Below are positions 14,342-18,048 of a stretch of 38,936 bases of DNA, in pieces (within the stretch, counting starts at the first letter, position 1; each line of letters opens with the position of its first letter). The DNA is taken from NCBI GenBank assembly GCA_945915085.1, contig CAMEET010000005.1:1-38936 (forward strand), read 5' to 3'. The position numbers were made by a program, and so were the translations under genes. The stretch is from an uncultured Treponema sp. (GTDB taxonomy: Bacteria > Spirochaetota > Spirochaetia > Treponematales > Treponemataceae). The notes under the pieces were generated by a model. It saw nothing but the letters and a program-made list of their open reading frames with translations, did not search any database and was not told where the DNA came from.

Positions 14342-17296
14342 ATGAACTTTATTCCACACACAAAAGAAGAATCTCTACACATAATCAAAGATTTAGTTGC
14401 CCGCTTTAAACAAAACGAAAAATCATACACAAGTGTAATCTACGATGAGTCAAATACACGAACAGATTTCATAGATAAATTTTTTGAAGCTTTGAATTGG
14501 GATGTTAGAAACGATAACGGTTTTGCAGAACGATTTCGCGAAGTTGTGCGGGAAGATAAAGTTGTAATAAACGGTCAAACAAAAGCCCCTGATTATTCAT
14601 TCAGACTTGGCGGACAAAAAATTTTCTTTGTGGAAGCAAAAAAGCCATCTGTAAATATAAAAGATGACATTGCTCCAGCCTATCAACTTCGTCGCTATGC
14701 TTATACTGCAAAACTTCCACTTTCCATTTTAACTGACTTTGAAGAATTTGCTGTTTTTGATACAAAAATCAAACCAAATCCAAATGACAAAGCAAGTGCG
14801 GCTCGCATTCAATATATGCGATATGACCAATATGAAGAAAATTTTGATTATTTATGGAATACTTTTTCCAAAGAAGCAGTTCAGACTGGAAGTTTTGACC
14901 AATATTGTGAATCTGGTAAAAACAAGCGCGGAACCAGCGAAATTGATAACGAACTTTTATCTACAATAGAAAAATGGCGACTAGATTTAGCAAAAAACAT
15001 AGCACTTAGAAATCCACAATTATCTTTGCGAAATTTGAATGTTGCAGTTCAAAAAATAATTGACCGCATCATCTTTTTAAGAATTGCAGAAGATAAGGAT
15101 ATGGAAGATTTGGAAACATTAAAAAATGCCTGTAATTCTTCTGATGCTTACAACGAACTTAAAAAAGTATTTGAAAATGCAAATGTAAAATATAATTCAG
15201 GTCTTTTTGCTTCAGAAAACTGGATAAACGAATTAATTATCGATAGTAAAGTTTTAAAAGATATTGCAAACGAACTTTATTATCCTTCTTGTCCTTATGC
15301 ATGGGTAGCCCTTCCTGTAGAAGTTCTGGGCAATATTTATGAAAAGTTTTTAGGGAGCGAAATAAATTTTAAAAACGTAAAGAATGGACATACTGTAACT
15401 GTTGAAGAAAAGCCGGAAATAAAAAAAGCAGGTGGTGTTTTTTACACTCCAACTTACATTGTAAAATATATAGTTGAACAGACAATCGGAAAAAAGCTTG
15501 CAAATTGTACTCCAGAAAATGCAAGTTCAATAACAATTTGCGACCCCGCATGTGGTTCTGGTTCATTTTTAGTGGGTGCCTTTAAGTATCTATTAAACTG
15601 GTATTTAGACAAATATACGAAAAACAAAACCGAAGAAAACAAAAACTTAAAAACTGGAAAATTGATTTCTGTAAAAAATGGCATTGAATTGAGCATTCAG
15701 GAAAAAAAGAAAATTTTGACAACTCATATTTATGGAGTTGATATTGATGCGCAAGCTGTAGAAGTTACAAAACTTTCTCTTTATTTGCAGATGCTAGAAG
15801 GCGAAGGCAAACAGGAAAATTCTTTATTCCGGGAATCTGATATGCATGTTTTACCATATTTAGGCGACAACATAAAATGCGGTAACAGTTTGATTGGAAG
15901 CGATTTTTATGCCTCGCAGGATTTATCACTTTTTGAAGAAGAAGCAATGTACAAAGTGAATGCATTTGACTGGGAAAAAGAGTTTTCACAAATTTTCAAG
16001 AATGGTGGTTTTGATTGTGTGATTGGAAATCCGCCGTATGTAAATATAAATACCATGCCTGAATATCATGAGTATTTCTCTAAAAAATATTCAGAAATTC
16101 ATACTGGTTATAATGATTTAATGTATTATTTTCTTTATCGTGGAATAAATTTGTTAAATAAAACTGGTATTTACGGAGTGATTACATCTAACTATTTTCT
16201 GGGAAATGAATATGCAAAAAAACTAAGATTGTTTTTAAATTCAAAAGTTACTTCGATTATTAATTTTAAAAATGCTCAAATTTTTTCAGAAGCAAGTGTC
16301 CATACAACTTTACTTTTTGCAAAAAATGAAAATACAGAAAATGAAATTAAGATTTTCACATATAGAGAAAATAAATCGCCACAAGAAGTGATATTGAATG
16401 AAAGTTATGATTTTTCTACATTAACAAAAAATGAGTTATCAGATACCTGGTTGATTGCAGATAAATCATCTACATCTATTATCAATAAAATAAATACTAA
16501 TTCTGTTTTTTTAGGTGATATTGCTGAAATTGTAAAAGGTGCAGAAACTGGTAAGAATGGTATTTTTTCAGTGCCTTACAAAATAATAAAAGATAATTTA
16601 ATTGAAGAAGAAATTGTGCGAAAATGTATCAAAAATAGTCATATTCATAGATATCACATTAATTCTGTTGATTTGTTCTTGATTTATTGTGATAACAATT
16701 TTTCATCAAAGAAATATCCAAATACATATAAATATTTAGAGAAATATAAAAATGAATTATCAGATAGACGAGGTCCAAAAAACAATGAATATGAATGGTG
16801 GAGACTACATCGCCCTTCTGTAAAAGAATTTCATGATGCACCGGAAAAAATAATTGTTCCTTATAGGGCGGAACATAACAGATTTGCTTACGATGATCAA
16901 CAGTTTTTCAATGATGGTGGTGACATACGTGCAATCGTTATGAAAGAGAATTGTGGTTACTTGATTAAATATATACTTGCATTACTTAATTCCACATTGC
17001 TTGATTGGTATTTTGGTTTTATTGGAAAAACAAAAGGTAATTCTCGCAAATATTTTAATAAACCATTAGCCTTGATTCCAATAAAATCTGCCACACAATC
17101 CCAGCAACAAGAACTTGCAAATCTTGCAACTTTGATGATGGACGCTGTAAAAAGGCAGCAGGAAGCAAAAAGTGACCAGGAAAAAAATATCTGCAAAATG
17201 CGAATAGAAGCAATAGATGCCCAAATCAACGCAAAAGTTTATGCTTTATACGGTTTAACAGAAGATGAAGTTGCCATTGTAGAAAAATCAAAGTAA
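14342..17296 (+). CDS. Type IIG restriction-modification enzyme (fused nuclease, N6-adenine methyltransferase, specificity domain)
   Basis: A single 984-residue chain with all parts of a type IIG (Eco57I-like) enzyme. Residues ~35-130 form a PD-(D/E)xK nuclease of the HsdR_N type (P83-D84 and E98-A99-K100, in KAPDYSF...FFVEAKKP). A helical linker precedes the methyltransferase (~365-660): motif X GGVFYTPTYIVKYIV, motif I DPACGSGSFL at 401-410, and catalytic motif IV NPPY at 563-566, the form used by N6-adenine methyltransferases. The C-terminal third (~680-960) resembles a TaqI-type target-recognition domain and is more AT-rich than the rest. Because methylation is built in, no partner gene is needed, and none is adjacent. 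AGGA lies 7 nt before the ATG. AATCTA/TAGATT, a 6-bp inverted repeat about 40 nt upstream, could be an operator. The recognition sequence cannot be read from the protein. Confidence 0.9.
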   Translation: MNFIPHTKEESLHIIKDLVARFKQNEKSYTSVIYDESNTRTDFIDKFFEALNWDVRNDNGFAERFREVVREDKVVINGQTKAPDYSFRLGGQKIFFVEAKKPSVNIKDDIAPAYQLRRYAYTAKLPLSILTDFEEFAVFDTKIKPNPNDKASAARIQYMRYDQYEENFDYLWNTFSKEAVQTGSFDQYCESGKNKRGTSEIDNELLSTIEKWRLDLAKNIALRNPQLSLRNLNVAVQKIIDRIIFLRIAEDKDMEDLETLKNACNSSDAYNELKKVFENANVKYNSGLFASENWINELIIDSKVLKDIANELYYPSCPYAWVALPVEVLGNIYEKFLGSEINFKNVKNGHTVTVEEKPEIKKAGGVFYTPTYIVKYIVEQTIGKKLANCTPENASSITICDPACGSGSFLVGAFKYLLNWYLDKYTKNKTEENKNLKTGKLISVKNGIELSIQEKKKILTTHIYGVDIDAQAVEVTKLSLYLQMLEGEGKQENSLFRESDMHVLPYLGDNIKCGNSLIGSDFYASQDLSLFEEEAMYKVNAFDWEKEFSQIFKNGGFDCVIGNPPYVNINTMPEYHEYFSKKYSEIHTGYNDLMYYFLYRGINLLNKTGIYGVITSNYFLGNEYAKKLRLFLNSKVTSIINFKNAQIFSEASVHTTLLFAKNENTENEIKIFTYRENKSPQEVILNESYDFSTLTKNELSDTWLIADKSSTSIINKINTNSVFLGDIAEIVKGAETGKNGIFSVPYKIIKDNLIEEEIVRKCIKNSHIHRYHINSVDLFLIYCDNNFSSKKYPNTYKYLEKYKNELSDRRGPKNNEYEWWRLHRPSVKEFHDAPEKIIVPYRAEHNRFAYDDQQFFNDGGDIRAIVMKENCGYLIKYILALLNSTLLDWYFGFIGKTKGNSRKYFNKPLALIPIKSATQSQQQELANLATLMMDAVKRQQEAKSDQEKNICKMRIEAIDAQINAKVYALYGLTEDEVAIVEKSK

Positions 17297-17310
17297 AAAT
17301 AACACAAAAA

Positions 17311-17359
17311 ACGTCGTAGACATTTCAAATCAATGTGAAAAAAAACACCTTGCAAAAAA
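17311..17359. repeat. Direct repeat, copy 1
   Basis: This 49-nt unit matches 17699-17749. They share the exact 18-mer catttcaaatcaatgtga and an A-rich tail ending cttgcaaaaaa. The first 10 bases differ by three transitions. The tail supplies the -35 element of the forward RNA promoter. Confidence 0.85.
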
Positions 17360-17378
17360 TGCAAACTAGATGTATATT
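17350..17378 (+). promoter_or_regulatory. Promoter of the candidate small RNA
   Basis: -35 TTGCAA (17350-17355), exactly 17 nt, -10 TATATT (17373-17378). The predicted start is near 17385. No gene lies downstream before the terminator at 17429-17469. Confidence 0.6.
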
Positions 17379-17384
17379 AAAAAA

Positions 17385-17469
17385 AGGAAGTGCCAAAACT
17401 CATTTGGTCGTCTCCACGGTTTCATTAAAAGCCGCCGCAGAGTCAGCAAACTTTGGCGGCTTGTTTTTT
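17385..17469 (+). ncRNA. Candidate ~85-nt small RNA (possible antitoxin RNA)
   Basis: Inferred from a near-consensus promoter and a strong terminator only ~50 nt downstream, with no credible coding frame between. Its 3' end converges on the 32-codon hydrophobic peptide gene read from the opposite strand, and the terminator stem would be shared by both transcripts. That arrangement resembles the antitoxin RNA of Fst/par type I loci. I found no long complementarity between its 5' half and the 5' end of the opposing transcript. Confidence 0.45.
17429..17469 (+). terminator. Terminator of the small RNA, possibly bidirectional
   Basis: AAGCCGCC (17429-17436) pairs perfectly with GGCGGCTT (17455-17462), with AGT/ACT able to pair inside the loop, followed by a run of six T on the + strand. 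On the minus strand the same stem is followed by TTTT, so it could also end the convergent peptide transcript. Confidence 0.8.
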
Positions 17470-17474
17470 CTCTT

Positions 17475-17573
17475 TTACTTGTAAATGTAAGAGAGCACTG
17501 CAAATATAGCACATACAATTGTAGCAATTCCTACCACAACTGAAAAAATCACTGAAATGATTTTTGCTTTCAT
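17475..17573 (-). CDS. Possible 32-residue hydrophobic membrane peptide (type I toxin-like)
   Basis: An ATG-TAA frame encodes a Lys-bearing start (MKAK), about 24 uninterrupted hydrophobic residues (IISVIFSVVVGIATIVCAIF...) and a C-terminal YIYK, so a single membrane span with positive ends. Size and composition fit type I toxin peptides such as Fst, Ldr and TisB, but I recognise no specific family. The ATG is buried: TTGAGGGG upstream pairs perfectly with CCCCTCAA, whose last A is the first base of the ATG, locking the only G-rich Shine-Dalgarno candidate in a hairpin. That would suit tight translational control, or may mean the frame is not translated. No strong promoter is visible; TTGAAA-N17-TAACTT inside repeat copy 2 is the best candidate. 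Confidence 0.4.
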   Translation of the reverse strand: MKAKIISVIFSVVVGIATIVCAIFAVLSYIYK

Positions 17574-17597
17574 TGAGGGGGTAGTACAACCCCTCAA
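17573..17597 (-). promoter_or_regulatory. Hairpin sequestering the peptide's start codon and G-rich ribosome-binding candidate
   Basis: An 8-bp perfect stem, TTGAGGGG / CCCCTCAA, with a 9-nt loop. It includes the first base of the peptide ATG at 17573. Confidence 0.6.
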
Positions 17598-17605
17598 AAC
17601 GGCGA

Positions 17606-17638
17606 AGTCAAGGCTTTAAGCGTTAGCGTGCCTTGACT
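17606..17638. repeat. Inverted repeat AGTCAAGGC / GCCTTGACT
   Basis: A perfect 9-bp stem around a 15-nt loop, in the presumed 5' leader of the peptide transcript. Two tiny frames cross it on the minus strand: ATG at 17661 (12 codons) and ATG at 17651 (11 codons, GGGAGG only 2 nt upstream). Neither is convincing as a gene. Confidence 0.55.
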
Positions 17639-17698
17639 CGACGTATTGCATAGCCTCCCATTTTTTTATTTCAGCTTATCGCTGATAAAGTTAGGGAG

Positions 17699-17749
17699 AC
17701 GCCGCAGGCATTTCAAATCAATGTGACAAAAAAAACATCTTGCAAAAAA
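17699..17749. repeat. Direct repeat, copy 2
   Basis: A 51-nt counterpart of 17311-17359, lying 388 nt downstream in the same orientation. The two copies bracket the small RNA and peptide. The sequence after copy 2 diverges and lacks a good -10 box, so only copy 1 seems to form the forward promoter. Confidence 0.85.
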
Positions 17750-17784
17750 ATTGTAGTTTAGTTTTTAGTAATTGAAAAAATCTT

Positions 17785-17829: not shown

Positions 17830-18048
17830 CCTGGAATTCGTTGAATCACGGGTACACACAAATAAAAATTTTGGGGCGTTGCGGGGCAGCGGCGGAATGA
17901 TTTTTGCCCCGCTAGAAGGGGTGGCGAGCAACGTAGTGCGAGCCAGGGGAAGGCTTTCCCCTCCTTTTATATTCTTTTTTATATTCTATATTATAATTTT
18001 TGAGAATGGCTAAGTTTTTATTTGTGTGAATCTGTGGTGAATTCCAGG
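17830..18048. repeat. Long interrupted inverted repeat with GC-rich core upstream of pnp
   Basis: Outer arms CCTGGAATTC (17830-17839) and GAATTCCAGG (18039-18048) are exact complements. Inner arms ACACAAATAAAAA (17856-17868) and TTTTTATTTGTGT (18015-18027) are also exact. The 16-nt and 11-nt segments between them do not pair. The core (17873-17965) is strongly GC-rich and folds by itself: GCGGGGCA (17881-17888) with TGCCCCGC (17905-17912), and GGGGAA-GGCT-TTCCCC at 17946-17961. It looks like a MITE- or REP-type cassette, or a native leader hairpin interrupted by one. No transposase is present. Confidence 0.65.

Follow-up and report, generated by a model that had tools for sequence, protein, structure and literature searches.

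The analysed stretch of 38,936 nucleotides, which we call the window, comes from contig 5 of a 2.37-Mb draft genome of the genus Treponema. Directly behind a type IIG restriction-modification gene and between rpsO and pnp, it carries a small module that we read, with a probability of about 0.8, as a decayed representative of a family of type I toxin-antitoxin systems in Treponema, probably silenced and with its antitoxin kept. In the intact members of this putative family, an antitoxin RNA of about 85 nt would be transcribed from its own strong promoter on one strand, and an mRNA on the opposite strand, converging on a shared terminator, would encode a predicted membrane-spanning toxin of 26-35 aa, with a leader in which a cis anti-SD, GUCUCCC, pairs with the SD GGGAGGC. 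As in txpA/RatA, pairing of the 3' ends would lead to cleavage by RNase III and keep the toxin mRNA low, and folding of the leader would act as a second brake on the toxin. In the window, a mobile repeat parts the SD from the start codon, so that the peptide is probably not produced. A preliminary description of the locus had proposed an undescribed type I-like system with convergent RNAs and a shared terminator, a proposal for which there is now strong comparative support. If correct, the proposal would add Spirochaetota to the phyla with type I systems. Well over 100 loci are present in Treponema from herbivore guts, the cultured T. porcinum among them, and they form a natural data set in which intact pairs number in the dozens, next to tandem arrays, antitoxins without a toxin and toxins that were broken repeatedly.

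Layout of the window locus

The features of the locus are listed below in window positions, with the evidence for each in brackets.

17311-17359, no strand: direct repeat 1, probably what is left of a lost neighbouring unit, from its toxin 5' end (tandem spacing)
17350-17378, plus: antitoxin RNA promoter, TTGCAA-N17-TATATT (read directly from the sequence)
17385-17469, plus: antitoxin small RNA of about 85 nt, made up of 5' hairpin, linker and terminator (covariance model, conservation, covariation)
17386-17415, plus: RNA 5' hairpin with the shared element GGAARTGCC..GTCTCC (fold; covariation of helix 1)
17430-17469, both strands: bidirectional terminator, the 3' overlap of both predicted RNAs (stem, T runs, helix 2)
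17475-17573, minus: 32-aa single-span membrane peptide MKAKIISVIFSVVVGIATIVCAIFAVLSYIYK, the predicted toxin, stop codon included (profile match, 8.9e-10)
17576-17648, no strand: inserted dispersed repeat, including one copy of ATTG (copies in the genome; comparison with loci L176 and L170)
17654-17659, minus: original toxin SD, GGGAGG (SD-ATG spacing conserved in homologues)
17671-17688, minus: hairpin H2 of the leader, which lies between anti-SD and SD (numerous compensatory pairs in its arms among homologues)
17694-17714, minus: toxin mRNA 5' element GAAATGCCTGCGGCGTCTCCC with the cis anti-SD GTCTCCC (SD sequestration in homologues)
17699-17749, no strand: direct repeat 2, read from tandem arrays as the toxin 5' end of the window unit plus the leftover RNA promoter of the next unit
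17750-17778, minus: weak promoter-like match TTTTCA-N17-TACAAT, 5' of the toxin leader and off the conserved position

Most of the basic elements had already been named in the preliminary description, and these are present: the promoter TTGCAA-N17-TATATT lies where it had been placed, the RNA of about 85 nt ending at a terminator is matched at 17381-17467 with 79.7 bits by a covariance model built from 32 homologous RNAs, the convergent 32-codon frame with its membrane span has homologues in many Treponema species, and the terminator stem said to be usable from both sides is indeed bidirectional. The direct repeats are equally real, with 87% identity between 17311-17348 and 17699-17736, and look like leftovers of a tandem array rather than like DRa/DRb of the Fst type. 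Comparison of the repeats with tandem arrays suggests that in each of them an antitoxin promoter adjoins the 5' end of a toxin; the spacing of units in close tandem arrays is 344-460 nt. Integron cassettes were considered as a source of the arrays and rejected, with few core-site-like matches and no paired sites found.

The neighbouring restriction-modification enzyme (14342-17296) is of type IIG with Eco57I/TaqI_C similarity and matches the PADLOC model REase_MTase_IIG with an E-value of 7e-203. Neither a constant neighbour gene nor a defence island was found for the family, the neighbours being diverse across 90 flanking frames. On the other side of the locus, a GC-rich stretch 5' of pnp (17847-18036), which has 25-nt inverted repeats at its borders and terminator-like hairpins inside, is possibly another mobile element.

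Conservation of the RNA and the peptide in Treponema

The RNA model matched 74 of 200 genomes of the genus Treponema, where a single genome can have as many as about 12 copies and tandem arrangement is frequent. It also matched 19 of 296 genomes sampled across the phylum, nearly all of them from the same family. An exact-pattern search of named records returned 64 stretches, nearly all from Treponema or other spirochaete MAGs and mostly from animal gut. T. porcinum and Treponema sp. C6A8 were also among the sources, as was a single MAG with the label Proteobacteria. The exact pattern was not found in IMG/VR, and carriage by phages or plasmids was rejected on the basis that the queries used had no match in plasmids, phages or IMG/VR. 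A divergent class of modules was also seen (L347, L348, L350, L352 and L353), whose toxin leaders, most of them with ACCCGTGACAGG, resemble the 5' end of the RNA that they face; since the R1 model misses most of this class, the family is larger than counted.

Co-occurrence of RNA and peptide had been suggested as a check, and a DNA search with the RNA region and a protein search with the peptide led to the same places in other Treponema. Among 135 RNA loci that were fetched, 84 carry an intact membrane peptide of 26-35 aa, in every case convergent with the RNA, with the SD 5-11 nt from the ATG and the stop codon near the 3' end of the RNA. In comparison with the 105 RNA loci whose peptide match (E<1e-3) is convergent, only 12 of 310 control stretches had any peptide match.

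The RNA consists of a 5' hairpin (GGA.RTG.CCRA .. TYGG.CGT.TCC) and a terminator hairpin, and its covariation lies above that of all 500 shuffles (0/500) and of every slid control. The RNAalifold consensus of the first alignment lacked the 5' hairpin, which was tested separately: 91% of the cells in this helix (helix 1) are paired, and 3 pairs changed on both sides. In homologues, the T run after the terminator stem measures 7-8 on the RNA strand and mostly 3-6 on the toxin strand. An RNA promoter scoring at least 9/12 is present at 112 of 132 loci (6.6 expected), and one scoring at least 10/12 at 99 of the 132 homologous genes (1.0 expected from shuffles); for the toxin, 59 of 71 homologues have a promoter of at least 9/12, where shuffles predict about 5. 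With promoters far above chance, a shared terminator, and peptide matches (E<1e-3) on the convergent strand in 105 of 105 loci, the pair has the sequence make-up of an antisense gene and its target, and we infer that both strands are transcribed. An Rfam search gave no match at the gathering score, and the best permissive match (E 0.79) was an unrelated alphaproteobacterial sRNA.

The peptides, of which 75 are distinct, are 26-35 aa long with one hydrophobic span, have LSYLK(N/D)(K/R)K(E/S) or a near variant as their C terminus in most cases, and have Kyte-Doolittle window maxima of mostly 2-3 (84 members); at less than 60 aa, hydrophobic and with one membrane span, they have the size and make-up usual for type I toxins. 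The preliminary description had named a lack of conservation of the reading frame as a refuting outcome; the frame is conserved under purifying selection (pS 0.246, pN 0.131, ratio 0.53; 39 independent pairs, Fisher p = 7e-14). One subgroup, with MT(I/L)YE..SLAI.LAILIL, resembles the Pfam family PF16935 (Hol_Tox, of the TxpA kind) just under the cutoff: 5 of 28 members matched, with E-values from 5.9e-5 to 5e-4 and shorter peptides (MTIYEIISLAINLAILIL..), and two scores were 22.8 and 20.2 bits versus a cutoff of 23.3. Another subgroup has the same RNA and leader and no Hol_Tox match, and the window peptide did not match PF16935 either. No Fst-type family appeared among the Pfam, NCBIfam and solved-structure matches of the peptides, and no solved structure gave a useful match to the peptide.

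Purifying selection and a membrane span are insufficient to prove toxicity. We also compared how often each partner occurs without the other. Among untruncated RNA loci, 28 of 132 have no toxin or a toxin remnant (16 of 90 among matches of at least 60 bits). In a search that started from the peptide, a listed RNA adjoined 102 of the 128 matches. In 20 further regions that were fetched, nine clear and two weak matches to the RNA model lay at the right place, L347, L348, L352 and L353 have a divergent RNA of the same design as judged by eye, and L334 and L351 are broken or truncated. Intact-looking toxins with no recognisable RNA came to 3 of about 120 examined (L337, L338 and L344, in genomes that hold other copies), a count that excludes a few peptide matches, some of them at contig ends. 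The asymmetry is significant (Fisher p = 4e-6, with an approximate denominator for the toxin-without-RNA class). Part of its ascertainment comes from the RNA side, and some of the weak RNA matches that it includes may be false. Such an asymmetry is what is predicted for a toxin-antitoxin pair, in that the putative antitoxin alone appears to be tolerated and the putative toxin alone hardly so. A conserved, non-toxic small membrane protein with a function in stress or in the envelope, controlled by a convergent antisense RNA, would also account for conserved peptides under purifying selection; we consider it unlikely in view of the multicopy tandem arrays, the patchy presence (74/200 genomes), the diverse neighbours, the tight SD sequestration described below, the Hol_Tox similarity, and the many loci where the peptide has decayed beside a retained RNA, the reverse of which is hardly seen.

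Leader folding, shared 5' element and related systems

The toxin mRNA starts with approximately the same element as the RNA (GGAAATGCCTGATTCAGGCGGCGTCTCCC), followed by a hairpin and then by the SD GGGAGGC. The leader hairpin has many compensatory pairs in homologues, and the SD pairs with GTCTCCC at a mean probability of 0.93, versus 0.19 with shuffled leaders, such that the SD is sequestered in 71 of 71 homologues, versus 3 of 71 with shuffled leaders.

The 5' elements of toxin mRNA and antitoxin RNA are same-sense and locus-specific, with GGAAATGCC at the predicted 5' end of each. Their likeness is 14.2 within a locus versus 9.3 +/- 0.3 across loci (0/2000 permutations), in a test that is lenient in that it includes paralogous and related loci. 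We know of no parallel for a toxin mRNA and an antitoxin that share a 5' element. The likeness within loci may reflect gene conversion between inverted copies, or functional coupling. More speculatively, it might point to a new control logic, in which the antitoxin would carry a locus-specific copy of the 5' element of the toxin mRNA (hairpin plus anti-SD) that co-evolves with it within the locus, the two RNAs would compete for or exchange pairing through this element, and the RNA would mimic the cis-repressor of the leader; we regard this as a doubtful but conceivable reading. The matching elements in any case pose a testable question, namely how the two RNAs recognise each other.

The 5' half of the RNA was no more complementary to the toxin leader or SD than expected from shuffles (mean z -0.15 overall), and the duplex z was -0.39 at the SD versus -0.36 at a control region. 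This agrees with the preliminary description, which had seen no long 5' RNA-RNA complementarity; excess 5' antisense pairing with the leader or SD was accordingly rejected beyond a short anti-SD core, and direct blocking of the SD by the antitoxin RNA is possible but unsupported. The sole strong complementarity is the perfect 3' overlap of both RNAs, of about 40 nt, which makes txpA/RatA, where convergent RNAs pair at their 3' ends (PMC6562991), the nearest mechanism, and not Fst. Like txpA/RatA, bsrG/SR4 and bsrE/SR5 of Bacillus subtilis, the Treponema modules have convergent RNAs, a 3' overlap and a small single-span membrane toxin, here a predicted one. They differ from txpA/RatA in the overlap (100-140 bp there, about 40 nt in Treponema), in their shorter peptides, whose Hol_Tox scores stay below the cutoff and most of which have no match, and in being chromosomal and tandem with a 5' element common to both RNAs.

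The preliminary description had drawn an analogy to Fst/par. The par/Fst system (RNA I/RNA II, Enterococcus pAD1) is indeed convergent, with a bidirectional terminator, an overlap that does not reach the coding region and a membrane toxin (PMC4147584). However, the Fst repeats are complementary and pair RNA II with the toxin start region (PMC4147584), whereas the 5' elements in Treponema are same-sense with no excess 5' complementarity, and the Treponema peptides match no Fst-type family, a distinction drawn from searches of Pfam, NCBIfam and solved structures. Membership in the Fst family was therefore rejected, and the analogy fails on both repeat logic and peptide family. Type I systems were previously known only from Proteobacteria, Firmicutes and Tenericutes, to which a 2025 paper adds Cyanobacteria (PMC12390103). 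Its msoT1/msoA1 pair from Microcystis is, like the modules described here, a recent candidate type I system outside those three phyla (PMC12390103), but from an unrelated phylum. The open-access literature searched did not yield any description of a type I system from Treponema or another spirochaete, and the Spirochaetota family looks new.

The inserted repeat and the window copy

An 8-bp hairpin at the start codon had been taken for a sequestered initiation site. The sequence is real, but it is the left end of a dispersed repeat, and the hairpin was therefore rejected as a regulatory element. The repeat (about 17572-17648, including the GAGGGG..CCCCTC hairpin by the start codon) has at least 11 further strong matches in its own genome and many copies in sister Treponema species; its copies (17576-17648 in the window; L001-L014, L020-L028) are about 70-80 bp long, contain two hairpins and carry ATT at either end. 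In the homologue L176, the peptide ATG lies directly behind GGGAGGCTGGCA with a single ATTG and no repeat, whereas in the window the repeat is bordered by ATTG on either side. This identifies the repeat as an insertion that separates the peptide from its original SD, with ATTG as the likely 4-bp target duplication. The insertion is identical in L170, from a second species. In view of the dispersed repeat and the direct repeats, the whole region might be taken for mobile, non-coding repeat DNA or a REP-like array in which a reading frame is open by chance, an outcome that the preliminary description had named as refuting its proposal. That holds for 17576-17648 alone; for the RNA and the peptide, whose conservation in many species does not depend on the repeat, it is refuted, and as an account of the locus it is extremely improbable.

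The insertion also bears on the translation of the peptide. The site that had been called the only G-rich one upstream is not the original SD, as the true leader and the SD GGGAGG (17654-17659, minus strand) lie beyond the repeat. In the folded window mRNA, a distance of 80 nt separates this SD from the ATG of the peptide, and the ATG close to the SD opens a frame of 11 codons. At the conserved position of the toxin promoter the window scores only 5/12, with a weaker match further upstream. Because the repeat separates the SD from the start codon and the conserved promoter position holds no good match, this copy probably yields no peptide. The RNA gene is retained, and the working pair of the preliminary description gives way to a copy that is probably silenced. 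The weak promoter at 17778-17750 of the minus strand could still drive a peptide mRNA in this genome. One might also suppose that the pair still works and that the inserted repeat has become functional, its hairpin controlling the start codon: the hairpin covers the AUG, and the insertion is common to two species in which the frame is open. We hold this to be very unlikely, considering that the repeat occurs at many unrelated sites, that no SD lies by the AUG, that the SD-proximal frame ends after 11 codons, and that a promoter of the conserved kind is missing. Under the preferred reading of a silenced copy, a mobile repeat has apparently tamed a predicted toxin. The peptides of the window and L170 differ by two nonsynonymous and no synonymous codon changes, which is insufficient to prove decay.

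Identity between L170, from a sister species, and the window is 60% at the end of the restriction gene and 79% in the RNA (window 15900-17467), versus 97% in the peptide, 100% in the insert and 97% in pnp, which suggests that the left half was replaced by recombination. Repeats have also inserted into the RNA promoter of L335 and into the toxin 5' element of L195/L063, and in L161/L049 a repeat separates the SD from a decayed peptide. Finally, four toxin remnants (L122, L167, L193 and L220) have the membrane span swapped for the same short sequence, ..SLRPVLSYL.., which suggests that another dispersed repeat has inserted repeatedly into the toxin.
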